IMG/VR virus record: IMGVR_UViG_3300017767_003307
Location: 1 to 25,088 of that record
Length of the DNA: 25,088 bases
Source of the DNA: a virus
Reading direction: 5' to 3' (one strand)
Both the position numbers and the translations under genes were made by a program. Shown piece by piece: positions 4,143 to 23,107 of the stretch. Numbering within the stretch: position 1 is the stretch's first letter; the number at the start of each line of letters is the position of its first letter. The notes under the pieces are model-generated. The model ran no database searches. It was not told the origin of the DNA and was given only the letters and a program-made list of their open reading frames with translations.

Positions 4143-4145
4143 TTT

Positions 4146-4883: not shown

Positions 4884-5715
4884 TTTAGTTACAGTAGTAG
4901 GTGAGAATACTCATATTCTACCTCATATGCTCAAACATTACGAGAATATAGTAGATAAAGTATATGTTGGAGTATACAGACAGTCATCTGACGATAGTAT
5001 ATTAGAAGAAATAGAAGAATTAGGTATAGAACCGTTTATGATCTATACTGAACCTAAATATAACTGGGAAAGAGTGACTGAAATCTACAATAGTGTAAAA
5101 CAAACTAAAAAAAATGACTGGTGGATAGTATCAGACGATGATGAACTTCAAGTATACCCTGATAATATAGAGTATATTATTAAACAATGTGATAAACATG
5201 GTTATTCTTTTGTTACCGGAGGGTTTATAGATAGAATAGGTATAGACGGTAGATTTCCTAAAGTAAGCAGAGAAACGAATATACATAAGGCTTTCCCCAA
5301 TGCAGGATTCTTTAGATACCCTATGTCTAACGCCTGTCCTAATAAGGTAACCTTAATGAAAGGTAAAGTAAAAGTAACTTCTGGTCAGCATTACGTAGAT
5401 TTTGGTAATAATCAAACTAGCTGGGGTATTAAACACCCTAATAGAATGCCTATAGAAGAATGTTTTACTCAAGTACATCATTTTAAGTGGGATAGCACCT
5501 GTATTAGTAGATTAAAGAAGGTAGCTGATGTTAAAAAGGACTATTCTTTCTCTTCTGAATACGAAATCATGTATAATGCTATAATGAACTCTAATAGTAA
5601 AATTGATATTGCTAATCCTGAGTATTTAGTTGAAAAATTAAAGGAATTTTCGTATATTAATTACTACGATTATACCAATTGGAATAAATTAAGAGATAAA
5701 ATAGTAAAAATATGA
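4876..5715 (+). CDS. Family 2/92-like glycosyltransferase
   Basis: A 279-residue GT-A enzyme. It begins with VTVVGENTHILPHMLKHYENIVDKVYVGV (the 'leave home, walk to a distant interlocutor' start typical of Glyco_tranf_2_4/GT92-like proteins). WWIVSDDDELQVYP at 82-95 follows, with the DDD providing the metal-binding DXD. The block GGFIDRIGIDGRFP and the HHFKW segment near residue 200 are also typical of the group. The last 60 residues are helical. The reaction is transfer of a sugar from a nucleotide donor to an unknown acceptor. It overlaps the methyltransferase by 8 bases and the next small gene by ATGA, which suggests translational coupling. Confidence 0.74.
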   Translation: MLNLVTVVGENTHILPHMLKHYENIVDKVYVGVYRQSSDDSILEEIEELGIEPFMIYTEPKYNWERVTEIYNSVKQTKKNDWWIVSDDDELQVYPDNIEYIIKQCDKHGYSFVTGGFIDRIGIDGRFPKVSRETNIHKAFPNAGFFRYPMSNACPNKVTLMKGKVKVTSGQHYVDFGNNQTSWGIKHPNRMPIEECFTQVHHFKWDSTCISRLKKVADVKKDYSFSSEYEIMYNAIMNSNSKIDIANPEYLVEKLKEFSYINYYDYTNWNKLRDKIVKI

Positions 5716-5942
5716 GTTTAGAACTTGAAAAACAGCTTTTAGAAGAAAGAAAAGTAAAAGCGTTAGAAAAAATAGGTGATACTTTAGATGCTCTTACAAT
5801 ATGGTTTGAAGAAATAGATAAAGATGAATGGAGCAATAGATTACAGTTTTATTTAGGTGAATTTCATAAAATAGTACCAAAAGAAGTAGATGAAACAGAA
5901 ACACAAACTGGGAGTGATAGTTCCATACAGGAACAGACCTGA
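5712..5942 (+). CDS. Small acidic helical protein overlapping the next gene
   Basis: A 76-residue protein starting at an ATGA overlap with the upstream glycosyltransferase. Residues 1-57 are helical and charged (MSLELEKQLLEERKVKALEK ... WFEEIDKDEWSNRLQFYL). The last 18 residues (DETETQTGSDSSIQEQT) are low-complexity and acidic and are read from DNA that also encodes the first 17 residues of the downstream GT7 enzyme in another frame (5890-5942). The disordered tail suggests the downstream gene's constraint shapes that stretch. I do not recognise a family. It may be a small partner of the glycosyltransferases, which is speculation. Confidence 0.6.
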   Translation: MSLELEKQLLEERKVKALEKIGDTLDALTIWFEEIDKDEWSNRLQFYLGEFHKIVPKEVDETETQTGSDSSIQEQT

Positions 5943-7305
5943 TCAACTTAAGGTTTTTAAAGAGTACATTTCAAATTATCTTTATAGTAAGCAGATTACT
6001 CATGAAGTTATAGTAGTTGAACAGCAAGATGATAAACCTTTTAACAGAGGATTACTTCTTAATTGGGGGTGTAGAAAAGCTGAATGGGCAGAATGTGATT
6101 ACGTAGTTTTCCACGATATAGATATGCTTCCAGTTAATGTGGACTACTCTTATAGTGATAAACCACTTCACTTAGTACAAAATTTAGAGATACCAGATGA
6201 AGAGGACTCTCTCTTTTATGATTATTTTGGGGGTGTTACTATGTTTACGTTAAAGGATATTAAAAAAGTAAATGGATATTCTAATAATTACATAGGTTGG
6301 GGATTTGAAGATGATGATTTATTCTTAAGATGCCTTAGAAATGGAGTAAAGATGGATACTTTAGAGTGGGGACAGAGAAGACATTCGGGCATCGGTCTTC
6401 AATTCAATGGTAAAGATTCTTATGTAGCTATAGATAACCCTATTTTAAGAAATAAAGAGTTTAGTATATTTGGTAGCTTCACTACAGATAGTTTAGAGTG
6501 TAATTTAGATTACGAATTCGACGAAATGAGTATTTTTTCCTTTCCTGGTCGAGATATTGCACTTAGTTATCGCTCATTTATGAACTTTAACTTTCAACTT
6601 TGGGATAAATTTATGAATTCTCATTCTATCTATACTAAAAAATATCCATTCGGTAGTTATAATTACGTTATTACTTTTAATTTATCAGGAGAAACGAAAG
6701 AAGTAGAGTTTTATATTAACGGTAGTTTTGTAGGAAGTAAAACTTTGGATTCTTTTGTAAATATTAGTCGTAGTAACAAAAAATTACTTTACCTAGGTTC
6801 AGGAGATCCTAATAGAGAAGTAAAACCTAATTTCTTTAAAGGGCTCATAAATAATTTTGCTATTTACGACAAAGCTCTTACTAATAGTGATATAGCTGAT
6901 ATAAGTAATAACACCAAATATAGTTTATTCGAATATAAAAGTGGTCGAAATTTAATCTTATACTTTGATAGTAAGTTTATTTCTAATAATTCATTTGTTG
7001 ATTTAGCAGGAAGTAGTAATAATATTATAAAAAATTGCAAAAAAGTAGTTACTACTGAACAAACTAGAAAAAAGGTTCCTGTACCTTTTAGAAGACCAGG
7101 AATATTCAAAGCTATACCTCATAAAAATTCTGGTTTTACAGATACTTGGGCGGATTGGTCTAGTAGAACTAATCAACATAAATATTTTAGAGTATTAGAC
7201 AACGAATCTTCTCTTGATAAAGAAGATGGGCTGTCTACTTATTGGGGAGAACTTACAAAAGAAGATAAAGGTAACAATTTTAACCATCTATATGTCAAAT
7301 CATAA
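5890..7305 (+). CDS. GT7 (beta-1,4-galactosyltransferase-type) enzyme with an inserted LamG-like domain, copy 1
   Basis: A 471-residue protein. The N-terminal part carries the GT7 hallmarks in order: LGVIVPYRNR (7-16), VVEQQDDKPFNRGLLLNWG (42-60), the HDID metal site (75-78), DYFGGVTMFTL (111-121) and NGYSNNYIGWGFEDDDLFLR (128-147). In animal beta4GalTs the C-terminal catalytic segment with the metal-binding His follows at once. Here residues about 165-345 instead form a LamG/concanavalin-like domain (GLQFNGKDSYVAI, EVEFYINGSFVG, NFFKGLINNFAIYDKALTNS). The catalytic tail resumes near residue 400 with FKAIPHKNSG (His411) and EDGLSTYWGEL. It should transfer a hexose or HexNAc, while the insert could bind a glycan acceptor. 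Specificity is unknown. It overlaps both neighbours and has no signal peptide or membrane helix, so it should be cytosolic. Confidence 0.82.
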   Translation: MKQKHKLGVIVPYRNRPDQLKVFKEYISNYLYSKQITHEVIVVEQQDDKPFNRGLLLNWGCRKAEWAECDYVVFHDIDMLPVNVDYSYSDKPLHLVQNLEIPDEEDSLFYDYFGGVTMFTLKDIKKVNGYSNNYIGWGFEDDDLFLRCLRNGVKMDTLEWGQRRHSGIGLQFNGKDSYVAIDNPILRNKEFSIFGSFTTDSLECNLDYEFDEMSIFSFPGRDIALSYRSFMNFNFQLWDKFMNSHSIYTKKYPFGSYNYVITFNLSGETKEVEFYINGSFVGSKTLDSFVNISRSNKKLLYLGSGDPNREVKPNFFKGLINNFAIYDKALTNSDIADISNNTKYSLFEYKSGRNLILYFDSKFISNNSFVDLAGSSNNIIKNCKKVVTTEQTRKKVPVPFRRPGIFKAIPHKNSGFTDTWADWSSRTNQHKYFRVLDNESSLDKEDGLSTYWGELTKEDKGNNFNHLYVKS

Positions 7306-8656
7306 GCTAGGAGTATGTGTTCCTTATAGAAATAGAGAGTTACATCTTAATGAATTTATTCCTAAAGTAGGAAAATTCTTAAAAGATGCAGGAATAGACT
7401 TTCGAATGTACTTTGCTCATCAAGTTGATGATAAATTATTTAATAGAGGTGCTATGAAAAATATAGCAGCTAAACATGCCTTAGAAGACGGGTGTGATTA
7501 TATAGTATGGCATGATATAGATATGATTCCGGAAGATAATTCTTGTGATTATTCGTTTCCTGGAGACTTTCCACAGCATATAGCAGTTAGAATATCTCAA
7601 TCTGATTATAAACTTAAATATTTTGAATATTTCGGTGGTGCAGTAATCTTTTCTAAAGAACAAGTAGAAAAAACTAATGGTTATTCAAATGAATACTGGG
7701 ATTGGGGTATGGAAGACGATGATTTATTTTGGAGATGTTATTTAGAAGGTTTATTAGACGTAACTACTAGTAGTATGGATACATTTCCACAACATTATTA
7801 CTTTGACGGCAAAGATAGTAAGATACAAATACCTCACAGTATATTACCTGATAGCTTTTTTCAAAGAGAATTTGAAATATCAGTACTTGTAAGAGCTGAA
7901 CATCAACAAGATAAAGCTCCTATTCATCTTATAGGGGATAATGACTCTAAATTTTTTGAATACCCTATATTTAGAATACCAGGAGAAGATTTTGGTATAT
8001 CTTTTAATAACTCTAGAGCATATACATTACAGTTTTTCAATACTTTTCACCAACATAACTATATGTGGGTAAAAAGATATGCAAATTTATGGACTTGGAT
8101 TACTGCTAAATTTAATCCTCGTGCTAGAAAAGTAAATTATTATCAAAATGGAATCGAAGCTGATGTTGATTTAGGGCATGGAACTGAATCTCCTTTACTT
8201 TATAACGGTAGATTAAGCAGTAAATATAAAGGAAAAGATATTTTCTTAGGTTATACTCCTTCCTTTACTGAAGATTACCCAGGTAAAAGATTTAAAGGAG
8301 GAATAGGTGAAGTTATTATAAAAAGTCAAGGAGAAACTATATGGAAACTTTCTGAGAGTAGTGTAGATACTAAAGATAATGTAGAAATAGTAAATGAAGA
8401 TATGACAATATTTAATACTATTATTCCTCACCGTAGAAACGGTAAATTTAGATGCTTACCTCATAAAGATGAAGGTTTGGTTAACGGCAGATGGTCTAAA
8501 GGAGCTACTACTGCAAAAAATGAACGTAGATATGTATTAGAAATGCAGCAAGGTAAGTATAACTACAAAAATGAAGGTATAAATAGTTTAAAATATAGTT
8601 TAGTAAACGAAGAAGTACTAACTCCTTGGGCTAAAATGTTAAATGTAAAGGTTTGA
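7292..8656 (+). CDS. GT7 (beta-1,4-galactosyltransferase-type) enzyme with an inserted LamG-like domain, copy 2
   Basis: A 454-residue paralogue of the preceding gene. An in-frame ATG at 7214 would add 26 residues lying inside the upstream gene. I chose ATG 7292 because MSNHKLGVCVPYRNR then aligns with MKQKHKLGVIVPYRNR of copy 1. GT7 motifs: VDDKLFNRGAMKN (45-57), WHDIDMIP (73-80), YFGGAVIFSK (113-122) and NGYSNEYWDWGMEDDDLFWR (129-148). Residues about 168-352 are a LamG-like insert (YYFDGKDSKIQIPHSI, YYQNGIEADVDLG, FKGGIGEVIIKS). The tail FRCLPHKDEG (His391) and NEGINSLKYSLVNEE match the end of animal beta4GalTs (H...NSLTY) better than copy 1 does. It overlaps copy 1 by 14 bases and its TGA overlaps the next ATG. 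Confidence 0.82.
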   Translation: MSNHKLGVCVPYRNRELHLNEFIPKVGKFLKDAGIDFRMYFAHQVDDKLFNRGAMKNIAAKHALEDGCDYIVWHDIDMIPEDNSCDYSFPGDFPQHIAVRISQSDYKLKYFEYFGGAVIFSKEQVEKTNGYSNEYWDWGMEDDDLFWRCYLEGLLDVTTSSMDTFPQHYYFDGKDSKIQIPHSILPDSFFQREFEISVLVRAEHQQDKAPIHLIGDNDSKFFEYPIFRIPGEDFGISFNNSRAYTLQFFNTFHQHNYMWVKRYANLWTWITAKFNPRARKVNYYQNGIEADVDLGHGTESPLLYNGRLSSKYKGKDIFLGYTPSFTEDYPGKRFKGGIGEVIIKSQGETIWKLSESSVDTKDNVEIVNEDMTIFNTIIPHRRNGKFRCLPHKDEGLVNGRWSKGATTAKNERRYVLEMQQGKYNYKNEGINSLKYSLVNEEVLTPWAKMLNVKV

Positions 8657-10116
8657 TGGAAGAAAAAAAAATGTTAACCAAGTATAAAAAAAAACTCGAT
8701 AAAGTCGGCTGTGGGTTTTGTATAGCTAAATGGACTCAAGTTACTATTCACCTACAAATGGGTGAAACTCATTCCTGTCACCATCCTAAAACTCATAAAA
8801 TTAACTTACATGAAATAAAACGTAATCCTTCTGCATTACACAATACTCAATATAAAAAACTTCAAAGAAAAAAAATGCTTGAAGGAGAACGTCCTTCTGA
8901 ATGTGAATACTGTTGGAACGTAGAAGATAATTCAACCGAATTTTCTGATAGAATTTATAAATCTTCAGAACCCTGGTCAAGACCTTTCCTAAAGCAGATC
9001 CAAGACTTAGGTTGGAGAGCTGATTTCAATCCTAAATATGTAGAGGTAGCATTTTCTAACGCATGTAATTTTAAATGCTCTTACTGTGGTCCATCGTTTT
9101 CATCCTCATGGGTACAAGAGATAAAAAAATATGGGCCCTATCCTACTGAAGATAATTTTAACGACTTGGGCTGGCTAGAGAAAGAAGGTAAAATGCCAAT
9201 CAATCATAAAGAACATAACCCCTACGTAGAAGCTTTTTGGAAGTGGTGGCCAGATTTGTATAGAGATTTACATACATTTAGAATTACTGGTGGTGAACCT
9301 TTATTAGCTAAAGATACGTGGAAAATTTTAGATTATATAATTACTAATCCCGACCCGAATAAGAAATTAAAATTAGGTATAAATTCAAATCTCGGCGTAC
9401 CTGACAACTTAGTTGATAATTTGATAGAAAAGTTAAAAATAATAGAAGAAAACAATCTTGTAAAAGAAGTTATAATTTATACATCTGTAGATACTGCTGG
9501 TTCTCATGCAGATTATATTCGCAACGGATTAGATTATGATAAATTTTGTGGCAACGTAAATAAAATACTTGGGAATACTACTAAAGTAGCTTTCGTAATT
9601 ATGTCTACTTTTAATTTACTTTCTATTCCACGTTATAAAGAGATGTTAGGTTTTGTTTATAATATGAAAAAAGAATACAATAGCGATTTAAGATACTGGA
9701 ATCCAGCAATTATGGTTGATTCTTCTTACTTAAGATATCCTCTTCACCAGGCAGTTAATTTACTTCCTAAAGAGTGGGCTAAAAAAGTAGAAGATATAGC
9801 CGACTTCGCTGAAGGTTTAAGAGCAGTAAATAGAACTTCAGATGAAGAAAAATATCTTCCTCGTCATACAGGATTTACAGATATAGAAATTTCTAAAATA
9901 AAAAGGATAGCTGACTGGATGAGAGGAGATCATGATGAAGAAAGAATAAAGAAATCTAGAATAGATTTTTATAACTTTATGAAAGCTCATGATGAACGTA
10001 GAGGTACTGATTTCAAAAAAACATTTCCTGAATTAAGTCAATTTTATGAATTTTGTAAAAGGTTAAAAGAACATGAGAGTCGCAGTTTGCTTCAGAGGAC
10101 AGCTAAGGACGTATAA
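8656..10116 (+). CDS. Radical-SAM enzyme with N-terminal twitch-type cysteine region
   Basis: A 486-residue protein. The radical-SAM cluster motif CNFKCSYC lies at residues 137-144 (Cys 137, 141, 144), preceded by YVEVAFSNA and followed by the SAM-binding TGGEPLL (211-217). The N-terminal 90 residues hold Cys 19, 22, 41, 83 and 86 (CGFC, SCHHP, CEYCW), with NLHEIKRNPS and MLEGERP between. This is the layout of 'twitch domain-containing' radical-SAM proteins with an extra Fe-S cluster. The reaction is unknown; in glycan clusters such enzymes often oxidise, epimerise or rearrange sugars. ATG 8656 overlaps the upstream TGA (TGATG) and has AAAGG 5 bases before it. A TTG at 8653 is possible but less likely. 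Confidence 0.8.
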   Translation: MEEKKMLTKYKKKLDKVGCGFCIAKWTQVTIHLQMGETHSCHHPKTHKINLHEIKRNPSALHNTQYKKLQRKKMLEGERPSECEYCWNVEDNSTEFSDRIYKSSEPWSRPFLKQIQDLGWRADFNPKYVEVAFSNACNFKCSYCGPSFSSSWVQEIKKYGPYPTEDNFNDLGWLEKEGKMPINHKEHNPYVEAFWKWWPDLYRDLHTFRITGGEPLLAKDTWKILDYIITNPDPNKKLKLGINSNLGVPDNLVDNLIEKLKIIEENNLVKEVIIYTSVDTAGSHADYIRNGLDYDKFCGNVNKILGNTTKVAFVIMSTFNLLSIPRYKEMLGFVYNMKKEYNSDLRYWNPAIMVDSSYLRYPLHQAVNLLPKEWAKKVEDIADFAEGLRAVNRTSDEEKYLPRHTGFTDIEISKIKRIADWMRGDHDEERIKKSRIDFYNFMKAHDERRGTDFKKTFPELSQFYEFCKRLKEHESRSLLQRTAKDV

Positions 10117-12241
10117 ACATACTTTAGAAAATTTAAAAAGATTTTTTAATACTATAGATAATGGCAACGCTACTATAGACTACTTTTATCATACTTGGAA
10201 TGACAATTTATATTTTCCTAGTGATGGCCATAAATTATCTGCAATTGAAAATAATGCTTATGAATTAGCTGATTATGATAAGACTTTTTTAGAAAAGCAG
10301 TTAAACCCTAAAATGTATATAATAGAAGATTATAATAAGTATAAGAGAAGATCTACTACTATCGAACATTGGGGAGCAATATTTTATTCTATCTTCCAAG
10401 TTAATGAACTAAAAAAAAAATATGAAAAAATAAATAAGTTTACTTATGACTTAGTAATTAATACTAGATTTGACTTAGTATTCCCCTTGACTGCTAAATT
10501 CCCAGATTTAAAATTACATGAAAATACCGGGTACTCGTTTATGCCTATGGACGAACTAACTGGTGAAGAAGGGTATAGAAATTTTGATGATATGATTTTT
10601 TACGGCAGTTCTAATTCTATAGATATAATTACTAAAATTTACCCTAAATTTATTTTACCTGAATTAAATCAAAAAAGGTTTGATAGTTATTTTAATAAGA
10701 ATGAAAATTGGAATGACGTTCCAGAAGTATATAGATTAGGCCCCGGATCTCTACTATATTCTTATATGAATAAGAAAGAGATAAACTACTCAAATAAGGA
10801 ACTTAGATCTTTTTTAGTAGCAAGAAAAGAAGTTGAAACAAAAAATTTAGATGGAATAAAAGACTATTCTGAAATAAGGAAACTTCATTTAGATTATTAT
10901 AAAAAGAATAAATTTAAAGTTATAAAAGATAACTTTGCTATGAAAAGTCATTGTTTAAATATTAATGACGAAAGTGAGTTTGGTGGTGTATTTTATCCAA
11001 CTTTTCAAAGAGGACAGCTCGATACATCTAATCTTAAATTTACTACTTATGCTAATAGTCAAATACATAAACTTATCAAAGTTGATTTAGACTTATATGA
11101 TCATGAAATTCCTGATGATGCTTTTAATGATAAAGAGTTTATTTGTATATACCCTTTATTTGTAGCTCTGCATTTACCTTGGCACTCATCCTTAGAAACT
11201 TTACCTAGTAATGTTTTACAGGCTTGCAGAGAAAATAGATTATGGATTTTATTTGAAAACTTGTTAGAAGGAGACACAGTACCACCAGCTGAATGGTCTA
11301 GTCTACATTTAACTTTACAAAAACTTGGTTTACCCCCTAGAAATATAATTTTTACTAATAATGATTTTAATTTAACTTTTTCCTACGATGAATGGTTTAA
11401 AAGTCAAGATTTATTCGAAGAAAAAATAAAAGCAATCTTTATACCATATGATATTTTAAATATACCGAAATTAATAAGTGATGGTCTTCTTTATGAAGAA
11501 GTAAAATTTGATACTTTATTTAAATATAAATCTAAAAATATTGATAAATGTAAACATTTTTTAAAAATTAACCGTACACCTAGAAATGAACGAATAGCTG
11601 CAAGTATATATTTGATGGAAAATGATATTTTAAAAAATACTAAATTAAGCTGTACTGAATATCTTTGGGATAATAATGATAAGGCTTTTGATCATTTTTC
11701 TTGCTTAAATAGTAATACAAGAAAAAAATTTAAAAATTTACTACCCCTAGGTACTTCTAAAAAAGATTTAAAAAATACAGGAATGATAGGCTTAGGGAAT
11801 AATTTTTTCGATCCTAATAAACCTTACGAAATAAGTACGTATTTAGATACTTTTATTAGCATAGTTTCTACACCATTTCCTAGAAATCAAAACGAAATGC
11901 ATCTTCATTGCTCAACTTACAACCCAATGTATAATATGCAACCAATTATACAATATGGACCTTTGCATGCTCTGGGTACACTTAAGGAATTAGGATTTAA
12001 AACATTTGATAAATGGTGGTCTGAAAAGTATGATTTTATAGAAGATGATAGTTTTAGACTATTAGAAGTTTTAAAAGTTGTAAAGAAAATTAACAAATTA
12101 TCTAAACAAGAAATGTTAGAGATGTATCTTGATATGAAAAGTACCTTAATCTATAATTATAATTTACTTAAATCATTTGAAGGTAAGTTTGACATTGGCA
12201 GCGGTATAAAAATTAAAAGTAATGGAAAATATAATTCTTAA
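10073..12241 (+). CDS. Large two-domain putative glycosyltransferase
   Basis: A 722-residue protein in two parts. Residues 1-240 open with AVCFRGQLRTYK (4-15), then HWGAIFYSIFQVNELKKKYE (99-118), INTRFDLVFPL (129-139) and DDMIFYGSSNSID (172-184). This is the pattern of a phage and giant-virus glycosyltransferase-like family beginning 'RGQ.RT'. Residues about 270-722 form a second region with INRTPRNER (near 500-510). It ends with QPIIQYGPLHALGTLKELGF and KTFDKWW (643-649), a C-terminal signature shared by fucosyltransferase-like (GT10-type) phage enzymes. It may therefore carry two transfer activities, though neither active site is proven. There are no membrane segments. It overlaps the radical-SAM gene by 44 bases, and the conserved start of the RGQ motif supports ATG 10073. 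Confidence 0.62.
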   Translation: MRVAVCFRGQLRTYKHTLENLKRFFNTIDNGNATIDYFYHTWNDNLYFPSDGHKLSAIENNAYELADYDKTFLEKQLNPKMYIIEDYNKYKRRSTTIEHWGAIFYSIFQVNELKKKYEKINKFTYDLVINTRFDLVFPLTAKFPDLKLHENTGYSFMPMDELTGEEGYRNFDDMIFYGSSNSIDIITKIYPKFILPELNQKRFDSYFNKNENWNDVPEVYRLGPGSLLYSYMNKKEINYSNKELRSFLVARKEVETKNLDGIKDYSEIRKLHLDYYKKNKFKVIKDNFAMKSHCLNINDESEFGGVFYPTFQRGQLDTSNLKFTTYANSQIHKLIKVDLDLYDHEIPDDAFNDKEFICIYPLFVALHLPWHSSLETLPSNVLQACRENRLWILFENLLEGDTVPPAEWSSLHLTLQKLGLPPRNIIFTNNDFNLTFSYDEWFKSQDLFEEKIKAIFIPYDILNIPKLISDGLLYEEVKFDTLFKYKSKNIDKCKHFLKINRTPRNERIAASIYLMENDILKNTKLSCTEYLWDNNDKAFDHFSCLNSNTRKKFKNLLPLGTSKKDLKNTGMIGLGNNFFDPNKPYEISTYLDTFISIVSTPFPRNQNEMHLHCSTYNPMYNMQPIIQYGPLHALGTLKELGFKTFDKWWSEKYDFIEDDSFRLLEVLKVVKKINKLSKQEMLEMYLDMKSTLIYNYNLLKSFEGKFDIGSGIKIKSNGKYNS

Positions 12242-12929
12242 TGGCTGTAGCTTTATAGCCGGACATGTTGAACAGACTTCCACTACTCTTGGTTATCATT
12301 TAAAAAACTTATCAGGAAAAGCACCTATAAATTTAGCTTTACATGGTAGTGGTAATGAAAGAATGTTTAGAACTACATATGAATATTTAAGTAATAATAA
12401 AATTACTAACAGCTTAGTAGTTTTAGGCATAACTCATTGGGCAAGAATGGAACTTTATGATGAAATTAAAGAAAAATTTTATCATATAAATTTTTGGAGT
12501 AATAATTTTAAAAGTATGTTAAATGAGGTTTTGACTAATATTAAATCTAAATACGTAGATAATGAAATTGAATTAATAGATAATAAAGGATGGGATAGTA
12601 CTTTCTTAAAAAAATTTATAATATTTTATTTAGCTGCTTTTAAAAACGAAAAAATTGAAAGAGAGAAAATTGAAAGAGAAATCATACTTTTTGAACATTA
12701 CTGTAAGGCTAACAACAATATATTAATTACTTTTAATAGTCTAGACGGCGCATCAGAATCTTTTAAAAGCCAAAGTTATATTAAAATACAAAATTATAAT
12801 AACTGGAGTGATATAGTAGAGACTAAAAACCTACACCATTCTGATCCAGACTTTTCAGCACATCCAAACAGTGAATCTAATCTACAAGTAGCTAAATTAA
12901 TTCTCAAAGAATATGAGATACGTAATTGA
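12222..12929 (+). CDS. SGNH/GDSL-like hydrolase family protein
   Basis: A 235-residue protein. LNGCSFIAG (6-14) sits where SGNH enzymes have GDS(L), so the nucleophile would be Ser10, with Cys in place of the usual Asp. Gly42 and Asn45 in LHGSGNERM (block II/III region) and the C-terminal DPDFSAHPNSESN (DXXH-like: Asp followed by HP) complete the pattern. Members act as esterases, deacetylases or, within polysaccharide clusters, as acetyl-transfer partners. The lack of a signal peptide argues for a cytosolic role. It overlaps both neighbours (20 and 17 bases). A 15-base in-frame duplication encodes KIEREKIERE. The catalytic state is uncertain because of the GCS substitution. Confidence 0.6.
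   Translation: MENIILNGCSFIAGHVEQTSTTLGYHLKNLSGKAPINLALHGSGNERMFRTTYEYLSNNKITNSLVVLGITHWARMELYDEIKEKFYHINFWSNNFKSMLNEVLTNIKSKYVDNEIELIDNKGWDSTFLKKFIIFYLAAFKNEKIEREKIEREIILFEHYCKANNNILITFNSLDGASESFKSQSYIKIQNYNNWSDIVETKNLHHSDPDFSAHPNSESNLQVAKLILKEYEIRN
12651..12680 (+). repeat. 15-base in-frame tandem duplication
   Basis: Two adjacent 15-base units, at 12651-12665 and 12666-12680, differ only in their last base. They encode KIERE twice within a helical part of the SGNH-like protein, so the change preserves the frame. Confidence 0.8.
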
Positions 12930-13212
12930 CATTGACGGTACTATATGTTCAGAAGAAGGACCTGTAGAGAAAAGAATACCAATTCCGGAACGAATAAAAT
13001 ATATTAATAAACTTTACGAAGAAGGGCATCATATAGTTTATTGGACAGCTAGAGGATTAAAAAGTGGAAAAGGAGAAAAATATTATAGACCTATTACCGA
13101 AAAGCAATTAAAAGCATTTGGTTGTAAATATCATGCATTAGGTTTTAAATCTCATGATGCTGATATATTTATAGATGATAAGGCTATCAACGATAAAGAT
13201 TTTTTTAAATGA
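12913..13212 (+). CDS. Small HAD-superfamily phosphatase of the capsular-biosynthesis type
   Basis: A 99-residue minimal HAD protein. YVIDIDGTIC (3-12) is motif I with nucleophile Asp6 and Asp8. VYWTARG (42-48) is motif II with Thr45. Lys79 in GFKSHDADIF is the likely motif III Lys. IFIDDKA (85-91) is motif IV with Asp88/Asp89. There is no cap domain, as in small phosphatases annotated as 'capsular biosynthesis protein'. The expected reaction is hydrolysis of a phosphate from a sugar or small-alcohol phosphate. It lies directly before a nucleotidyltransferase gene (ATGA overlap), so both probably act on the same building block. The overlap with the upstream gene is 17 bases. Confidence 0.78.
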   Translation: MRYVIDIDGTICSEEGPVEKRIPIPERIKYINKLYEEGHHIVYWTARGLKSGKGEKYYRPITEKQLKAFGCKYHALGFKSHDADIFIDDKAINDKDFFK

Positions 13213-13940
13213 ATCAGTTTATGAATATAGTTTTGCCTATGGCAGGACAAGGTTCTAGATTTAGGAAAGCAGGTTATAAAAATTCAAAACCTTTTATAGA
13301 TGTAGATGGGCTACCTATGGTAGCTAAAGTTATTAAAAATTTAAATATTGAATTTAATAATAAATTTAACTTTGTTATAGTGTGTCTAAAAGAAGATTAT
13401 ATTAATTATGACATTAAAAACAAATTAGATTCTTTATTTAAAAAAGCTAACTTTAAATATGTTGTATTAGATAAAATGACTGAAGGAGCAGCTCAATCAG
13501 TACTAGTTGCTAAAGAATATATAGATAATACCCATCCGTTATTAATTTTTAACTCTGATCAACTTATCGAGTATGCTCCAAATATTGCTTTTTCTCAATT
13601 GAGTTTACATGATGGAGGAATATTATGTTTCGAAGGTACTGGTCCTGAATGGAGTTATGCAAAATTAGATGATGACGGCTATGTAATAGAAGTTGCAGAA
13701 AAAGTTGAAATTTCAAATTGTGCAACTGCAGGTTATTATTACTGGAACAGAGGAAAAGATTTTGTAAAGTATGCAGAGCAAATGATTTATAATAATGACC
13801 GCTCTAAAAATGAGTTTTATGTAGCACCTGTTTTTAATTATGCTATAAAGAACGGTAAAAAAATCGTAACATATATGGTAGATAAGGTATATCAGCTAGG
13901 TACTCCTGAATATTTAAAACAGTACTTAAGTGGTAAATAA
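13209..13940 (+). CDS. Nucleotidyltransferase (sugar or small-molecule phosphate NTP transferase)
   Basis: A 243-residue protein of the NTP_transferase fold. VLPMAGQGSRF (8-18) is the nucleotide-binding GXGXR loop. KNSKPFIDVDG (24-34) carries the signature Lys27-Pro28. TEGAAQSVL (91-99) and FNSDQ (114-118, with metal-binding Asp117) follow. GTPEYLKQYL near the end is also typical of the family. It should couple a phosphorylated building block to NTP, releasing pyrophosphate, to make an activated donor. Relatives of this compact type act in capsule pathways with HAD and PLP enzymes. The base and substrate cannot be told from sequence. The ATGA start overlap with the HAD gene supports 13209 rather than Met5. 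Confidence 0.8.
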   Translation: MNQFMNIVLPMAGQGSRFRKAGYKNSKPFIDVDGLPMVAKVIKNLNIEFNNKFNFVIVCLKEDYINYDIKNKLDSLFKKANFKYVVLDKMTEGAAQSVLVAKEYIDNTHPLLIFNSDQLIEYAPNIAFSQLSLHDGGILCFEGTGPEWSYAKLDDDGYVIEVAEKVEISNCATAGYYYWNRGKDFVKYAEQMIYNNDRSKNEFYVAPVFNYAIKNGKKIVTYMVDKVYQLGTPEYLKQYLSGK

Positions 13941-14856
13941 ACCTATAACATACGCATATTTAGAGACAACAAACTACTGCAATTTACAGTGCAGTTTTTG
14001 TAATAGAGAAGAAGTCATAGGTCATCTTCAACATATGCCGATAAGTAAATGGCGTTCATTATTAGATTCTATTAAACATCACCCTATTAACGAAGCTAAA
14101 TTAATGGGAATGGGCGAACCATTATTACATCCTCAATTCGATGAAATATGTAAAATATTTAAAGAATATTTTCCTAATGCTTTTCTTATAGTAGCTACTA
14201 ATTGTCAATACCCAGTAAAACCTAATACTAAAATGGGTATAAAGTTTGAAAAAACTATGAAATATGTAGATTTACTGTATTTTAGTATTGATGGCTATAA
14301 AAAGTCTTATGAAAGAGATAGAGCTCCTGCTAAATGGTCTAAACTAATGAGTTTTTTAGAAGATTTTAAATCTATGAATAGAAGTTCGTGTAGAGTTACA
14401 GTTAATTATGTAGTAAACCCTGATAATATAGATGATATACGGAAGATTAAAGATAGTATAGTAGATAAATATAATTTAGAAGAGTTGAGACTAAATATAG
14501 CTCAAAATTGGTCAGAAGATGAATCAATGCCTCTTGGATACTCTAAAGACCAAATAAAATTTTTAAAAGAAAATTGGATAAGCAATATTAAAGGTAGAAG
14601 TGTTTGGGAGTTTAAAGATTGTTTTTGGGTAAACGAAGGATTATATACAACTGTAGAAGGAGATGTAAAAATGTGCTGTATGAATACAGGAGCTACTTCG
14701 CTTGGTAACTTATTTAAACAGTCTATAGATGATATAAGACTACAAGATAGTTATCAAGAAATTAAGTTAGGATGTAATAGTAACGAACCAACTAATCACT
14801 GCAAAAATTGTTCTTATAAGGAATTAGTTCCTATACTTAACGAAATAGGAGTATGA
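13930..14856 (+). CDS. Radical-SAM enzyme with C-terminal SPASM domain
   Basis: A 308-residue protein. TNYCNLQCSFC (14-24) gives Cys17, Cys21 and Cys24 for the radical-SAM cluster; LMGMGEPLLHP is the GGEP-like SAM-binding motif. The C-terminal part has the SPASM layout for auxiliary Fe-S clusters: DCFWVNEGLYTTVEGDVKM, CCMN, LGNLF, CNSNEPTNHCKNC. Unlike the radical-SAM protein encoded at 8656-10116, its extra cysteines are at the C-terminus. SPASM enzymes include peptide-modifying and sugar- or alcohol-oxidising members. In this setting oxidation or rearrangement of a sugar or amino-alcohol is most plausible. The start is GTG 13930, 11 bases inside the nucleotidyltransferase gene; the conserved TNYC motif lies too close to the N-terminus for a later start. 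Confidence 0.82.
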   Translation: MVNKPITYAYLETTNYCNLQCSFCNREEVIGHLQHMPISKWRSLLDSIKHHPINEAKLMGMGEPLLHPQFDEICKIFKEYFPNAFLIVATNCQYPVKPNTKMGIKFEKTMKYVDLLYFSIDGYKKSYERDRAPAKWSKLMSFLEDFKSMNRSSCRVTVNYVVNPDNIDDIRKIKDSIVDKYNLEELRLNIAQNWSEDESMPLGYSKDQIKFLKENWISNIKGRSVWEFKDCFWVNEGLYTTVEGDVKMCCMNTGATSLGNLFKQSIDDIRLQDSYQEIKLGCNSNEPTNHCKNCSYKELVPILNEIGV

Positions 14857-15656
14857 AAAAAGTAATAATTTGTTTTGGTGATAGTTGGACTTCAGGTCAT
14901 TTTTTAGACCCAACAGTTGAATATATTCATTTACTACATGATAATAATAAAGAGTACTGTATTAGTAAGTCTTGGGTAAGGCATCTAGAAAACGAAACTA
15001 AAATTAAAACTATAAATTTAGGAGAACCTGCTAGTTCTAATGATAGGGTAGTTGAAAGAATAGATAACGAATTAGATACTATACTTAATACGTATAAACC
15101 AGAAGATATACTTTGCTTAATAGGTTGGTCTTCACCTGAACGAAGAGATTTTAACATAAAATTTAAAGAATTTAACGAAAGGATAACTTTACTTCCTGCT
15201 GAAGGATTAAATACCGAACAAAAAGAAAGGTTTAAAGATAGTTTTGGTAGTTTTGATGGAAGTCGAATTTCGGATTTTTATGATAATTATTTTTATTATT
15301 TTTGGTGTTTCGAAGAGTATATTCCTAGACATCGTAATAATATAGTATTAACTGATATTATTCTTACTAATCTTAACATAGATGTAATTTATTTTGACGC
15401 ATTTTACCAAACTTCAGGATTTGCAAATAAAGAAACTAAACAAAGTCATTACCAACTAGCTACTTATGGTCAGGTAGGTAAGTTATATAGCCGTATCTAC
15501 AAAAGCAAATTCATACCTTATACTTTTAGAGAGTATTTAGAAAGTATCAATGATAACACTCTTTTTGAAAAAGACGATTATCATCCAACTGAATTAGGTC
15601 ATAAGTTATGGGCTAAACATTTAACTCAGATTTTAAATGATAGAAAGAAAATTTAA
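14853..15656 (+). CDS. SGNH/GDSL-like hydrolase family protein, second copy
   Basis: A 267-residue protein with a canonical start: IICFGDSWTSGH (5-16) gives block I GDS with Ser11. INLGEPASSNDRVVERI contains the block II Gly and the block III-like Asn. CLIGWSSPERRDF follows in the core. DDYHPTELGHKLWAKHL near the C-terminus supplies the Asp/His of block V. The catalytic set looks complete, in contrast to the GCS-bearing protein at 12222-12929. No signal peptide is present. It could remove or transfer an acyl group on a glycan intermediate, but the substrate is unknown. It begins at an ATGA overlap with the SPASM gene and overlaps the next gene by 20 bases. Confidence 0.72.
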   Translation: MKKVIICFGDSWTSGHFLDPTVEYIHLLHDNNKEYCISKSWVRHLENETKIKTINLGEPASSNDRVVERIDNELDTILNTYKPEDILCLIGWSSPERRDFNIKFKEFNERITLLPAEGLNTEQKERFKDSFGSFDGSRISDFYDNYFYYFWCFEEYIPRHRNNIVLTDIILTNLNIDVIYFDAFYQTSGFANKETKQSHYQLATYGQVGKLYSRIYKSKFIPYTFREYLESINDNTLFEKDDYHPTELGHKLWAKHLTQILNDRKKI

Positions 15657-16599
15657 TAAAGATATTCCATTTAATAAAATTAGGTTACATTCTTCAGAAA
15701 GAAACCAAAGTTGGAACGATCTATTTGAATTATTTAAAACCAGTATTAATGATTCTGATATAAGATATTATCCTAATTTAGATAAACTATATTTAAAGTG
15801 CAAAAAATTTTTTAAATGCAATAACCTTATCATAGGTTCAGGTAGTGATAGGTGTATAAAGTATTTTTTTGAAGCTAATCAAAAATATAACAACGTTATT
15901 ACTACTGTTCCATCATTTCCAATGTATAAAGTTTATAGTGATATGTTTGGGTTTAATTTTACAGGAGTAAAGTATAAAACTTTGAATTTTCCTGAAGAAG
16001 AATTTTTGAATACTATTACTGAAGACAGTATAGTTATACTATCTAATCCTAATACTCCAATAGCTCATAAACTTGATATAAGTTTAATCAAAAAAATACT
16101 TGAAAAAAATGTTCCTACTCTAATTGATGAAGCATATATTGAATTTGCAAAAGTTAAATCTATTTCACGCTATATAGAAAAGTATCCTAATTTATACGTT
16201 ACTAGAACTTTTTCAAAAGCATTAGGAAGCGCAGGTATAAGAGCAGGAGTACTATTATCTAATAAAGAAAATATTGAAAACGCTCTTCAGTTTAGAGATA
16301 TGCACGAAATAACAGGACTTTCTGCTAAATGGATTTATATTCTTATTAACAATTACCATTATATAAAGGACTATGTCGATTCTGTTTTATATACTAAACA
16401 AAATATAGAAAAAGTTTTAAAAGAGAAAAATATTTCTTATATTAATTCTTATAGTAACTGGTTACATATTAAAGAACCATTTAAAGTACCAAACGATATA
16501 CTGGTTAAGAAAAATTGTACTATACCAGGCTCAGATGTAACATGGACTAGAATGAGTATTTGTAGCTCAGTTAGCTTTGATTGGTTAAATAAATTATAA
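15637..16599 (+). CDS. HisC-like PLP-dependent aminotransferase or decarboxylase
   Basis: A 320-residue fold-type I PLP enzyme. GSGSDRCIKYFF (67-78) matches the PLP-phosphate loop. SNPNTP (136-141) and DEAYIEF (164-170, with Asp164 for the pyridine nitrogen) follow. TRTFSKALGSAGIRAG (189-204) has the Schiff-base Lys194 and phosphate-contacting Arg202, and TRMSICSS holds a late Arg305 like the substrate-carboxylate Arg of HisC. The family includes histidinol-phosphate aminotransferases and CobD-type phospho-amino-acid decarboxylases. No other histidine or cobalamin genes are present, so a role in making an amino-alcohol or amino-sugar building block is more likely. This is inferred. It is the last gene of the overlapping chain and slightly shorter than typical HisC (about 350). 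Confidence 0.78.
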   Translation: MIERKFNKDIPFNKIRLHSSERNQSWNDLFELFKTSINDSDIRYYPNLDKLYLKCKKFFKCNNLIIGSGSDRCIKYFFEANQKYNNVITTVPSFPMYKVYSDMFGFNFTGVKYKTLNFPEEEFLNTITEDSIVILSNPNTPIAHKLDISLIKKILEKNVPTLIDEAYIEFAKVKSISRYIEKYPNLYVTRTFSKALGSAGIRAGVLLSNKENIENALQFRDMHEITGLSAKWIYILINNYHYIKDYVDSVLYTKQNIEKVLKEKNISYINSYSNWLHIKEPFKVPNDILVKKNCTIPGSDVTWTRMSICSSVSFDWLNKL

Positions 16600-18782: not shown

Positions 18783-19268
18783 ATGGCAATATTAGATACT
18801 AACGAGATAATGTTTAGAGCTTTCGAACCGAAAGTACAGAACAGATTTTATATGGTAATAGATGGAATAGAATCGTTCATGGTAAAGAACGTTGCTGCTC
18901 CTAACTTTACTGACAATGCAATAAAGCTAGATCATATAAACTCCTATAGAAAAATAAGAGGAAAGAGAGAGTGGGGAGAAATGACAATGACGTTATATGA
19001 CCCGATTACTCCTTCAGGAGCACAACAATGCATGGAATGGGCTCGTCTATCTTATGAGTCTGTAACCGGTCGTGCTGGTTATTCTGACTTCTACAAAAAA
19101 GATGTTACTTTAAATCTTTTAGGACCAGTAGGAGACATTGTTTCTGAGTGGATAATTAAAGGTGCTTTTATTACTAACTTTAACCAAGGATCTTTCGATT
19201 GGGCTACTGATGAAACTGCAGAGCTTGCAATTACAGTGAATATGGATTATTGCATCTTGAACTACTAA
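18783..19268 (+). CDS. Tail tube protein (T4 gp19-like)
   Basis: A 161-residue tube subunit. It has the gp19-like order: EPKVQNRFYMVIDGIESFMVKNVAAPNF at the N-terminus, KLDHINSYRKIRGKREWGEMTMTLYDP in the centre, and GPVGDIVSEWIIKGAFITNFNQGSFDW near the end (Phage_T4_gp19 type). It forms the inner hexameric tube through which DNA passes. Its place directly after the sheath gene is the usual order. It is followed by a terminator 23 bases downstream, so sheath and tube may form a strongly expressed unit separate from the chaperone and tape-measure genes. There is no Shine-Dalgarno; ATG follows AATAAAGAAAAAA. Confidence 0.93.
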   Translation: MAILDTNEIMFRAFEPKVQNRFYMVIDGIESFMVKNVAAPNFTDNAIKLDHINSYRKIRGKREWGEMTMTLYDPITPSGAQQCMEWARLSYESVTGRAGYSDFYKKDVTLNLLGPVGDIVSEWIIKGAFITNFNQGSFDWATDETAELAITVNMDYCILNY

Positions 19269-19379: not shown

Positions 19380-20117
19380 ATGTCAAAATTTAGCTTACCT
19401 ACCGAAACGGTAGAATTACCCTCAAAAGGATTATTATATCCTGAATCTTCTCCTCTTAAAAAAGGTACTGTCGAAATGAAATATATGACAGCCAGAGAAG
19501 AAGATATACTTACCAATAATAACTATGTTCAAGACGGTACTGCATTAGATAGAGCTATTAAATCTTTAATAGTAGATAAATCCATCAACTATGACGAATT
19601 ATTAGTAGGGGATAAAAATGCTTTAATGGTGGCTGCTCGTATATTAGCATACGGTAAAGATTATCCAATCTACTGGGATGGTCAACCTTATACTGTTGAT
19701 TTATCTAAATTAGATAATAAACCTATAGATGAAGAGGTATTTAAAAACGGAAATAAAGTAGAATTTAAATTACCAAATACTGATAATATAGTGACTGTAA
19801 AACTCCTATCTCATGCAGACCAGTCTGCTATTGATGAGGAAGTAGAAGGAAAGAAAAAAATAGAACCTGATTCTGATTATAGCAATTCTACTAGATTAAA
19901 ACATATTATTACTTCAATTAACGGAGAAACAGATGCTGCTACTATAAGAGACTTTGTAGATAATGGACTTACTGCAAGAGATGGTAGATGGTTAAGAGCT
20001 AAATATAACGAAATTCAACCAGATATTTTATTGACACATCAACCAGATGGTCCAGGGAGTGAGGAGGTTCCAATCCCGATTGGGATAGGGTTTTTTTACC
20101 CAAGCCTGTCCACCTAG
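19380..20117 (+). CDS. Tail/baseplate hub assembly chaperone, T4 gp26-like
   Basis: A 245-residue protein of the T4 gp26 family (NCBI 'T4 family baseplate hub assembly chaperone'). Its start TETVELPSKGLLYPESSPL and MKYMTAREEDILTN (about residues 34-47) are the family hallmarks, followed by RAIKSLIVDKSINYDELLVGD and VAARILAYGKDYP. The C-terminal third (HADQSAIDEEVEGKKK, LKHIITSINGE, RDGRWLRAKYNEIQPDILL) is helical and also usual. It lies between the tube and tape-measure genes, the position of tail-assembly chaperones (lambda G/GT) in other phages. Its last codons read GFFYPSLST. A T7 run 18 bases before the stop would let some ribosomes shift into the frame ending at 20355, giving a 324-residue form. 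Confidence 0.88.
   Translation: MSKFSLPTETVELPSKGLLYPESSPLKKGTVEMKYMTAREEDILTNNNYVQDGTALDRAIKSLIVDKSINYDELLVGDKNALMVAARILAYGKDYPIYWDGQPYTVDLSKLDNKPIDEEVFKNGNKVEFKLPNTDNIVTVKLLSHADQSAIDEEVEGKKKIEPDSDYSNSTRLKHIITSINGETDAATIRDFVDNGLTARDGRWLRAKYNEIQPDILLTHQPDGPGSEEVPIPIGIGFFYPSLST
20088..20099 (+). other. Probable programmed ribosomal frameshift site
   Basis: The zero-frame codons are GGG TTT TTT TAC, with seven T residues at 20091-20097. The +1 frame is closed by TAG at 20086-20088 and open from 20089 to 20355, so any shift must occur between 20089 and the zero-frame stop at 20115. A peptidyl-tRNA on TTT can re-pair on the T-run after +1 (or -2) slippage. Upstream lie AGGAGG (20062-20067) and a hairpin ATCCC-GATT-GGGAT (20073-20086), which could stimulate it. 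The evidence is indirect. Confidence 0.6.
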
Positions 20118-20355
20118 AACATCTTTATTCCGACAGATACATGAAATAGTTTTTCATGGTAACGGAGGATATGACTGGCATACTGTTTATAACATGCCTA
20201 TATGGTTAAGAAAGTTTACTTTTCAAACTATTCAAGAACATATGGATAAGTTAGCTGAACAAGCTAAAAAAGCTAGCGGTCAAGCTTCTACTAAAGCCCC
20301 AGTTAAAGGGCCAAACGTTAAACCAGATTTTACTACAAAGAGGAGCTCTAAATAA
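20089..20355 (+). CDS. Frameshift extension of the tail assembly chaperone
   Basis: The +1 frame continues for 85 residues after the T-run, with FRQIHEIVFHGNGGYDWHTV, YNMPIWLRKFTFQTIQEHMD and a Lys/Ala-rich tail ending KRSSK. The HEI.FHG.GGYDW.TVYNMP.WLR pattern is one I recall from the short frame following gp26-like genes in other T4-type marine phages, so the stretch looks conserved. No ATG, GTG or TTG occurs in this frame between the stop at 20086 and ATG 20194, which is past the conserved block; a separate start is therefore unlikely. By analogy to lambda GT, the fusion would bind tube and tape measure during tail assembly. A homopolymer sequencing error is the main alternative. Confidence 0.65.
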   Translation, partial: GFFTQACPPRTSLFRQIHEIVFHGNGGYDWHTVYNMPIWLRKFTFQTIQEHMDKLAEQAKKASGQASTKAPVKGPNVKPDFTTKRSSK

Positions 20356-20395: not shown

Positions 20396-23107
20396 ATGGC
20401 AAGAGAAAGTAGTGGGTTTAGTAAGGGAGATTTAGATAATGCTCTAGGAGTAAGAGATGCAACTAAACAAATAGGGCAATTTCTTAAAGCTATTGGTGCT
20501 GATACTAATAACTTTTCAAGAGATTTTGCAACAGTTTCTAGAGAAGCTAATAATTTTGCTACTTATCAAGCTAATGCTGTAAAGAGTACCAAAAATGTAA
20601 ATAAGTTATTAGAAAAAGCTAACAATTTAAGAGGTTTAGCTAATAAACAACAAGCAGAAGCTAGTAGATATTTTACTCGAGCTCAAAAAGCTGAAAAACA
20701 GGCCTATGATTTAACTTTAAAAGGAACTAAAGAAGCAAAGCAAAAAGCAAAAGTTTTAAAAGCCCAAGCAAAAGAGCAGGAAGATATAGCGAAAGCTTTA
20801 GACGCTCAGGTAGGAAACAGTACAGCTTTAGCTGATCAATTTGAAACTTTAGGAAAAACTTCTCAAGATTTATCAAGAAATGTTTATGGTACTGCCGCAG
20901 CTATATCTGATACTTTAGGTTTAAGTAATCATTTAACTACTTCATTTGAAGATGCAAACGAAATACAGCGTCAAAAACAAATTATTCAGGAAGATGAATT
21001 AGAACTTCAAGGAAAAATTAACGCAGCATTTGAGGATTATTTAAAGATGAATCATGAAAATGTTGAAGATCAAAAAGAAATAAATAGATTACAAAAGGAA
21101 TTTGTAGAAGAAGGAAAAGGAATGACAGCTGATAGACTAAGTCAGTTCGACTTAGAAGGAATTACAGGAGGAGGAGAAAATGATGTAGCTGCTGAAAGAA
21201 TAAAATCAGCACAAAAGGGTATGTCTAATACTAAAACAGCACTTCCTTCCGAATTAGGAACCATGATGAAAGGTCTTGGGAAAGCAATAGGTGCTTTAGC
21301 TAAAAGTTTAATAGTACTTAAAGGTATAGCGAAGGTTGTAGAATTTATTGAGTATTCAATTTTCGGAGTAGAAAACGAAGCTGTAGATTTAGCTAGAGCT
21401 TTTTCAATATCTAAAAGAGAAGGTCATGAATTACGTAAATCTATAGATGCATCAGCTCAAGCAGCAGGTTTATTAGGAGCAAATACTGAAGATTTTATTA
21501 AATTACAGTTAGAGTTTACTAAACAGACAGGAATGGTGACCAGATTAAACACTGATCAGCTCAAAACTATGTCTCTTATGACCAAACAGCTTGGTTTTAG
21601 TAACGAAGAAGCTGTGCACTTAACTGAATCTTTTAAAGCACAAGGTACTTCCTCGGAACAAGGATTAGAATCTTTAATCGAAGGTTATAATACAATGAAG
21701 CTCCAAGGTAAAGCAACTGCGACGTTTAAAGCTTTGATGGGAGATATTACCTCAGATGCAGAATTACAAAGAACATTTCTTACTCAAGGAGCTGATGCTG
21801 CAATGAGACAAGCTCAAGCAGTAAGAAGAACAGGTTTAAGTCTGTCACAGCAACGTTCAACAGCTGAAGGTTTACTTGACTTTGAAAAGACTATGTCAGA
21901 TCAATTAGAGCTTCAGATATTTACCGGTAAAGATATTAACTTATTAGATGCTCAACGATTAGCTGCAGCAGGAGATACCCAAGGTGCATTTAAACTTATA
22001 CAAAAAGAAATGGGTAAACTAAGTGCTGCTGAAATGAAAATGCCTATGATAAGAAACAAAATGCTTAGTGTATTAGGTATGAGTTATGAACAGTATCTAG
22101 AAACCCTTAACGTTCAGCAGCAACAAAATGCAGCTTTACTAAAAGAGCAAAAAATAGTCAAAGCACTTGCTGCTGAAACTGGTAAGCTTCATTTAGCAAA
22201 AACGAAAATCTTTAATGATGAAGAATCCTTCAGAAAGACTTTGAATGAACAACAGCAAAAAGATTTTGATATTGCATTAGAAAAATATAAAAATGATCAA
22301 AGGTACATTTCTGATATTAATGTTGCTAAATTATCTGGGATAAGTGAAGAAAAAGCTCAGACTAAAGTTCTAAATGATATGATTAATGAATTTAGTGAAG
22401 CGCAAATCCAAAACGCTAGAGCTAGAGCAGGTTATGTAGATACAGAAATAAAAGATTTTACTAATTTAAGAACTACCTCGGAAGCTTTTGAAGATACGAT
22501 GCGGATGGTAAAAAGTCAATTTGCTAGCTTAGTTAACACAGATGTAATAAATAAATTAACTACTAGCTTAGTTGATTTTATGAAACGAGTAGCTGAAGTA
22601 GGTTTGGTTAGTGCTCTTTTTGGTGGAGGAACTACAGAAGTAGCTGATAAAGAAACAGCTGCATTACTTAATAATAAAGATTTAAGTGTTGCCGATAAAA
22701 AATTAGTAGAAGAGCTAGAAAGAATTCGTAATTCAGAGGATAACACTGGAGTTCAAGCAAACCGAATAAAACTAAGAGAAGACAAACAAGCAGCAGCAGC
22801 TGAATTAGGAAGGTTAACCGCTATATATAACGATCCTGAAACAAAAAGAAACAGATTAGAAGAACAAGCAAAAGCCGCTGCTGGGTCCGATCAAGGTGAT
22901 TTTATATTAAGACCAGGTCAACCTCCTATAAGCTTTAACAAGGGGGACTTAATAATGGGCGGTACTCAACTTGGTATGGGTGGTGGTAAAGTAGAAAGAC
23001 TACTTGAAGAACTATTAGCTGAAACAAAAGCAGGTAAAGTAATAAAAATGGATACCGTTACTGTTGCACAAAGCTTAAAACGTAATGCTATAAAGATGAA
23101 TTCTTAA
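20396..23107 (+). CDS. Putative tail tape measure protein
   Basis: A 903-residue protein, the longest in the window, placed directly after the chaperone pair where tape measures are found. Residues about 60-160 are Ala/Lys/Gln-rich coiled coil (LLEKANNLRGLANKQQAEAS, KEAKQKAKVLKAQAKEQED). A hydrophobic segment lies near 290-320 (GLGKAIGALAKSLIVLKGIA). Long helical stretches follow (about 330-700). A short block near 834-855 (DFILRPGQPPISFNKGDLIM) occurs at the end of tape-measure-like proteins in other marine phages. I see no lysozyme or peptidase domain. At about 1.5 A per residue the length would set a tail of roughly 130 nm, a textbook rule applied here, not a measurement. Confidence 0.75.
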   Translation: MARESSGFSKGDLDNALGVRDATKQIGQFLKAIGADTNNFSRDFATVSREANNFATYQANAVKSTKNVNKLLEKANNLRGLANKQQAEASRYFTRAQKAEKQAYDLTLKGTKEAKQKAKVLKAQAKEQEDIAKALDAQVGNSTALADQFETLGKTSQDLSRNVYGTAAAISDTLGLSNHLTTSFEDANEIQRQKQIIQEDELELQGKINAAFEDYLKMNHENVEDQKEINRLQKEFVEEGKGMTADRLSQFDLEGITGGGENDVAAERIKSAQKGMSNTKTALPSELGTMMKGLGKAIGALAKSLIVLKGIAKVVEFIEYSIFGVENEAVDLARAFSISKREGHELRKSIDASAQAAGLLGANTEDFIKLQLEFTKQTGMVTRLNTDQLKTMSLMTKQLGFSNEEAVHLTESFKAQGTSSEQGLESLIEGYNTMKLQGKATATFKALMGDITSDAELQRTFLTQGADAAMRQAQAVRRTGLSLSQQRSTAEGLLDFEKTMSDQLELQIFTGKDINLLDAQRLAAAGDTQGAFKLIQKEMGKLSAAEMKMPMIRNKMLSVLGMSYEQYLETLNVQQQQNAALLKEQKIVKALAAETGKLHLAKTKIFNDEESFRKTLNEQQQKDFDIALEKYKNDQRYISDINVAKLSGISEEKAQTKVLNDMINEFSEAQIQNARARAGYVDTEIKDFTNLRTTSEAFEDTMRMVKSQFASLVNTDVINKLTTSLVDFMKRVAEVGLVSALFGGGTTEVADKETAALLNNKDLSVADKKLVEELERIRNSEDNTGVQANRIKLREDKQAAAAELGRLTAIYNDPETKRNRLEEQAKAAAGSDQGDFILRPGQPPISFNKGDLIMGGTQLGMGGGKVERLLEELLAETKAGKVIKMDTVTVAQSLKRNAIKMNS

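Follow-up and report, generated by a model that had tools for sequence, protein, structure and literature searches.

A gene of the T4 gp26 type and the start-less reading frame behind it very probably form a tail assembly chaperone pair comparable to G/GT of lambda, in which the long product would arise by a +1 frameshift on a run of Ts; this reading is drawn from comparative sequence analysis. The pair lies in a stretch of viral DNA of 25,088 nucleotides (hereafter the window), whose relevant features are the following:

18783..19268, + strand: tail tube gene (gp19-type; PF06841 E 7e-7, phrog_4542 E 1e-23).
19380..20117, + strand: gp26-type tail assembly chaperone, short form (TAC-N), 245 aa in the zero frame, with TAG at 20115-20117.
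19380..20355, + strand: putative fusion (TAC-NC) of 324 aa, joining 19380-20096 with 20098-20352 through one four-base step in translation.
20061..20067, + strand: GAGGAGG, Shine-Dalgarno-like proposed stimulator (GGAGG at 20063-20067), 26 nt before shift codon 2.
20086..20088, + strand: TAG in the +1 frame directly before the shift site, read from the sequence.
20091..20099, + strand: shift site TTT TTT TAC; UUU in the P site would re-pair with UUU after the +1 shift, with ACC next.
20098..20355, + strand: C-domain (TAC-C) of 85 aa, to be read in +1 once the shift has taken place; TAA at 20353-20355, no start of its own.
20140..20223, + strand: best-conserved portion of the C-domain, HEIVFHGNGGYDWHTVYNMPIWLRKFTF, from comparison with relatives.
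20396..23107, + strand: probable tape measure protein, 903 aa, named by position and length only.

The frames were read correctly in the preliminary description. The zero frame ends at 20117 and its translation closes with GIGFFYPSLST, the +1 frame is free of stops from 20089 to 20355 (88 aa; P0001), and a scan of that frame for ATG, GTG and TTG finds none until the ATG at 20194; the conserved C-domain block HEIVFHGNGGYDW occupies 20140-20178. The seven Ts stand at 20091-20097, and a start of the C-domain upstream of the site is excluded in the window because of the +1-frame TAG at 20086-20088. The placement of the pair between tube and tape measure genes, as in G/GT systems, is borne out as well: the tube gene upstream is recognised by its family matches, and the 903-aa ORF downstream, which had no match in the family search (Pfam, PHROG), is in the tape-measure position and has counterparts annotated as tape measure in the immuto phage and SP-15. 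Elsewhere in the window, Pfam matches identify a tail-fibre-like protein with a Peptidase_S74 chaperone domain at its end (740-1879) and, within the phage structural region, a block of sugar- and surface-type enzymes (4146-16596) with a galactosyltransferase carrying a laminin-G domain, two radical SAM proteins (one with SPASM), a nucleotidyltransferase, an aminotransferase and a methyltransferase.

By its sequence matches and its fold the gene belongs to the T4 gp26/gp51 chaperone family. The 245-aa zero-frame protein matches PF12322 (T4_baseplate, E 7e-6) and phrog_150 (baseplate hub, E 4.5e-10), the latter being matched also by all 41 of the fusions that we assembled in silico with the four-base step. 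The structures of TAC-N and TAC-C were predicted separately. The AlphaFold model of TAC-N (pLDDT 94.6, pTM 0.90) finds in BFVD the SP-15 baseplate hub (E 9e-17) and a T4-like baseplate hub assembly protein (E 2e-12), and that of TAC-C consists of three helices with pLDDT 87-91 across the core; structure searches of the PDB with either model gave no meaningful match, and the fusion profile matched no PDB sequence. T4 gp51 is 25% identical to gp26, and it alone has an additional C-terminal element, NYS..I..M.P.ER. An hhalign comparison of the fusion with a T4 gp51 profile gave E 0.0013 at a probability of 18%, TAC-C alone aligned to the last 30 residues of gp51 at a probability of only 1.3%, and one member matches phrog_634 (E 0.003). 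Homology between the C-domain and the extra C-terminus of gp51 is suggestive only.

The comparison with relatives covers 335 loci from public contigs and phage records, some contigs having been retrieved twice, and almost all of them come from uncultured phages; a distinct set of 217 loci was defined at no more than 85% nucleotide identity over -120 to +60. By a profile search, the C-domain lies in +1 and overlaps the end of the gp26-type gene in 309 of the 335 loci and in 203 of the 217 distinct ones, and the loci outside this layout are contig ends or the exceptions explained below. A tblastn search with the +1 peptide of the window matched almost every relative, a degree of conservation well outside what chance would give. 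Between close relatives, the substitutions at codon positions 1, 2 and 3 of the +1 frame number 4275, 2659 and 10640; because the differences concentrate on position 3, this frame is translated and selected. The layout is found in the isolates immuto (Flavobacterium), Mel-JY01 (Microcystis), SP-15 (Bacillus), LIS04 (Listeria) and GXN1 (Streptococcus), and was seen by eye in RM378 (Rhodothermus), which, used as a query, matched only itself. The alignment of gp26-type loci, which the preliminary description had proposed as a check, thus demonstrates a conserved two-frame gene, with frame, site and missing start common to very divergent phages. Two loci flagged as in-frame fusions (L098 and L230) proved to be one contig that ends 85 nt past the stop and were rejected. 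In every annotated isolate examined the long product has been split or missed, the C-domain being entered as a short "hypothetical protein" or omitted.

The site TTT TTT T, or a close variant, is present in nearly all +1 loci. Among the 203 distinct ones it reads TTTTTTTGG in 157 and TTTTTTTAC in 25 (one or the other in 182/203); TTTTTTTTC and TTTCTTTGG occur four times each, TTCTTTT(GG/AC/TT) five times, CTTTTTTGG twice, and TTCCTTTGG, TTTTTTTAT, TTTCTATTC, TTTTTTCAC, TTCTTTCGT and TTTTTTAGT once each. At nearly all of these a P-site UUU or CUU is able to re-pair in +1 with UUU or UUC, and with TTTCTATTC and TTTTTTAGT such re-pairing is possible at codon 1. The Phe at codon 2 is encoded by TTT in 153 of 153 representatives and never by TTC, although 22-25% of the Phe codons are TTC in these genes as a whole (naive P values: 3e-19 with 80% protein clustering, and 4e-7 counting only loci below 60% nucleotide identity), and the base after codon 2 is T in 53 of 56 loci clustered at 60% nucleotide identity. 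The slippery site is conserved and under selection, and the claim that the T run is the junction of a G/GT-like system is upheld by the layout and by this selection across the 203 distinct loci. The run is preceded by a further T in only 6/203 loci, and the codon before it favours C-ending synonyms (AAC:AAT 45:3, GAC:GAT 38:1, AGC:AGT 21:1) over a general C usage of 24-33%; a C at this position would hinder -1 slippage. In SP-15, LIS04 and the Streptococcus phage the second UUU is followed by C or A, and the shift may lie elsewhere in these phages.

The variant sites also bear on the direction of the shift, which the preliminary description had given as +1 or -2. A -2 frameshift as in Mu, with the P-site tRNA moving two bases back in the T run, gives the identical frame, and the commonest site, TTT TTT T, would permit it. 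However, at the sites TTC TTT T, TTC CTT T and TTC TTT C such a move would set UCU against a Phe or Leu anticodon, and a -2 shift needs neither a T as the third base of codon 2 nor a T next, whereas TTC never occurs at codon 2 in loci with the +1 layout. The shift is read as +1 and not -2 because TTC YTT sites cannot re-pair two bases back; the -2 half of the earlier claim, which we consider very unlikely, is dropped. The same variants argue against an origin of the long product in transcription or in sequencing. Slippage of RNA polymerase on the T run, leaving six (or eight) Us in a fraction of the mRNA, would suit the seven Ts found in most loci, but TTTCTTT, TTCCTTT, TTTCTATTC and TTCTTTC keep the +1 layout with no run of four or more Ts, and the lineages that leave +1 take up a ribosomal -1 heptamer and no other homopolymer. 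Homopolymers are also error-prone, and a base-calling or assembly error that concealed six Ts would leave a plain ORF of 324 aa; yet the same frame break recurs in all 203 distinct loci and in the isolates immuto, Mel-JY01, SP-15, GXN1, LIS04 and (by eye) RM378, the zero-frame stop always lies 5-9 codons from the site, and seven Ts are also read in L001-L003, from three further metagenome assemblies whose gp26 protein is identical. Because variants without the T run keep the +1 layout, we exclude both transcript slippage, which is extremely improbable, and read error, whose probability is practically negligible; the seven Ts in the window are genuine.

An alternative explanation is that internal initiation or coupling yields the C-domain as a protein of its own, with GGAGG serving as its Shine-Dalgarno sequence. 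The conservation of GGAGG upstream, the ATG in front of the C-domain in L011 and perhaps in L088 (see below), and the commonness of Shine-Dalgarno sequences near gene ends in phage operons (PMC5009743) would all agree with this explanation. However, 74 of the 203 distinct +1 loci have no ATG, GTG or TTG before the conserved block, 71 of 203, the window among them, have a +1-frame stop no more than 12 nt upstream of the site, and the invariant TTT TTT T, the preceding C and the switch to A AAU UUC described below would be left unexplained. We consider separate initiation a very improbable account of the family, and a +1 shift on the T run the better one.

The exceptions to the +1 layout are informative. 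In one group (L148 and L260-L268) the C-domain lies in the -1 frame, L266 ending too early to tell. The site of these loci reads TTC TTC or TTC TTT, and the last 15 codons of their gp26-type gene contain A AAU UUC without exception. This is a textbook -1 heptamer (X XXY YYZ) with the C-domain in the matching frame, whereas AAATTT occurs in 0/203 distinct +1 loci and the window likewise has no canonical -1 heptamer. On the tree the members form one clade inside the +1 loci (SH-aLRT 100), and hence have one origin: the clade as a whole exchanged +1 for -1 frameshifting in the chaperone pair. The megaphage L088 (LR756511, 595 kb) has U UUU UUC, likewise of the canonical -1 type, an open -1 frame and a weak C-domain match; an ATG overlaps its gp26 stop (TAATG). 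In L011 a GIY-YIG homing endonuclease gene (3793-4760; PF01541 E 1.6e-8) is inserted between the chaperone parts, the site reads TTC TTC, and the C-domain begins with its own ATG (METNEKLRNQLALFGIT...). An Rfam search of the insert found no intron, so L011 is probably not a spliced gene, and it shows that a separately started C-domain has been tolerated at least once. None of the -1 loci has GGAGG upstream of the site, nor does L011. Given the -1 clade and the split gene, the T run is therefore kept only where the +1 shift is needed.

Upstream of the site, GGAGG is found at -48 to -12 in 113 of the 203 loci, compared to 17.8 ± 3.5 expected (maximum 26 in 100 draws) under synonymous resampling with the proteins held constant; in a control stretch of the gene the same resampling gives 1.5 expected and 2 are observed. 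The element itself is under selection. The excess of anti-Shine-Dalgarno pairing is highest between -34 and -28, a second and small one lies near -8, and the gap from GGAGG to codon 2 is 29, 26 or 20 nt in most loci. This position, mostly 20-29 nt upstream, is new in that it lies outside the distances of known Shine-Dalgarno stimulators, which are 3 nt (+1) or 9-14 nt (-1) where characterised (PMC5009743). Because the spacing exceeds these distances, a role of GGAGG as stimulator is conjectural. Hybrids between Shine-Dalgarno and anti-Shine-Dalgarno sequences can hold the ribosome over several codons (PMC5009743), and GGAGG may hold it in this way through several codons, or act outside the ribosome. 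Pairing of GGAGG with a downstream CCTCC, present in L007, was not upheld in other loci.

RNA structure around the site gave weak z-scores overall in sliding windows, and we therefore split the loci by GGAGG. A stable downstream fold is predicted in 27 of the 41 loci that lack the Shine-Dalgarno-like element versus 17 of the 162 that have it (Fisher 2e-12, relatedness ignored), and a strict hairpin of at least 6 bp in 20/41 versus 1/162; 21 of the 41 have neither element at the thresholds used. The window, with its element at 20061-20067, has no strong hairpin downstream of the site. A conserved hairpin, GGGCCUA-NNNN-UAGGCCC, begins 13 nt after the site start in L115, L171-L174, L181, L184, L198, L237 and others, in which the upstream GGAGG is absent. 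In the 15 loci with the stem GGGCCUA/UAGGCCC, 5 of 7 pairs show changes on both sides, compared to 0/500 shuffles, the rows having been chosen for the stem so that the test leans toward it. The hairpin label requires about 10 changes on the tree, and the hairpin has thus been gained or lost repeatedly. In independent pairs the two elements are nearly always opposite, with only five supported pairs (p 0.06). We propose tentatively, with somewhat less than even confidence, that the +1 shift is driven throughout the family by an unconventional stimulator, a GGAGG whose distance behind the P site is 20-29 nt while the A site holds a sense codon, and which would act through anti-Shine-Dalgarno pairing prolonged over several codons or after leaving the ribosome. 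In this proposal GGAGG is evolutionarily interchangeable with a downstream stem-loop, and one lineage has reversed to -1 without a change of the fused protein.

Frameshifted tail chaperones are well known, mostly in -1 and, in Mu, -2. The pairs of lambda (gpG/gpGT), P2 (E/E'), HK97 and Mu lie between tube and tape measure as here, but their shifts are mostly -1 (Mu -2), whereas the present one would be +1 on UUU U in the T4 gp26/gp51 family. T4 itself has proteins of the same family (PF12322, phrog_150, fold); however, its short and long forms are two separate genes on opposite strands, whereas here the long form would come from a frame change of the gp26-type gene. The preliminary description knew of no well-described case in this family. 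Tail chaperones with a +1 shift are in fact not without precedent: a review considers it very likely in Halorubrum virus HSTV-2, and in some SEA-PHAGES genomes the shift is annotated as forward. These cases share the direction, but come from other hosts and are not shown to be of the T4 gp26 type. A review names T4 itself as the exception to tail-chaperone frameshifting, which is otherwise nearly universal, and the T4-type gene in the window is the more interesting because of it. Vladimirov 2022, as cited, describes the T4 solution as separate short and long genes; the authors of the phage Adele study cite it for poly-T -1 sites, and it may mention frameshifts in some T4-like groups. In phage Adele and the Vandenendeviridae/Andersonviridae a T-rich site at the end of TAC-N was likewise recognised by comparative genomics, but with the motif GTTTTT and in the -1 direction (PMC12846349). 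A parallel to the proposed shift outside tail genes is bacterial prfB (release factor 2), whose +1 shift takes place at CUU U or UUU U and is stimulated by an internal Shine-Dalgarno-like sequence (PMC5009743). There, however, the A site holds UGA and the Shine-Dalgarno sequence is 3 nt away, whereas here the A site holds a sense codon (UGG/UAC) and the element is mostly 20-29 nt away; a prfB-type element 3 nt before the shift codon was not found, the main peak being 20-29 nt before codon 2 with the minor excess near -8.

In the mechanism that we infer for the window, the majority of ribosomes would end at 20115 and release TAC-N (245 aa). In a minority, the Phe tRNA on the P-site UUU (20094-20096, or equally 20091-20093) would slip one base forward onto UUU, ACC would be decoded next, and TAC-NC (324 aa) would result, with the junction ...GFFTQACPPR, so that short and long chaperones would be made in a ratio. 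A C or G preceding the T run would restrict backward slippage, and the stimulator may be GGAGG, most often placed 20-29 nt upstream, and elsewhere in the family the downstream hairpin. Judging from position and family, TAC-N and TAC-NC would cover the tape measure and bring in tube subunits like gpG and gpGT of lambda; they are probably absent from the virion.

On this reading chaperone frameshifting is used, in the rarer +1 direction, by a numerous and very diverse group of large tailed phages of the T4 type, most of them uncultured. The unusually spaced GGAGG, and the hairpins that replace it, provide a natural variant series for the stimulation of +1 shifts. As +1, -1 and split-gene arrangements stand side by side, together with the separate genes of T4, a change of recoding direction is directly testable in this family.
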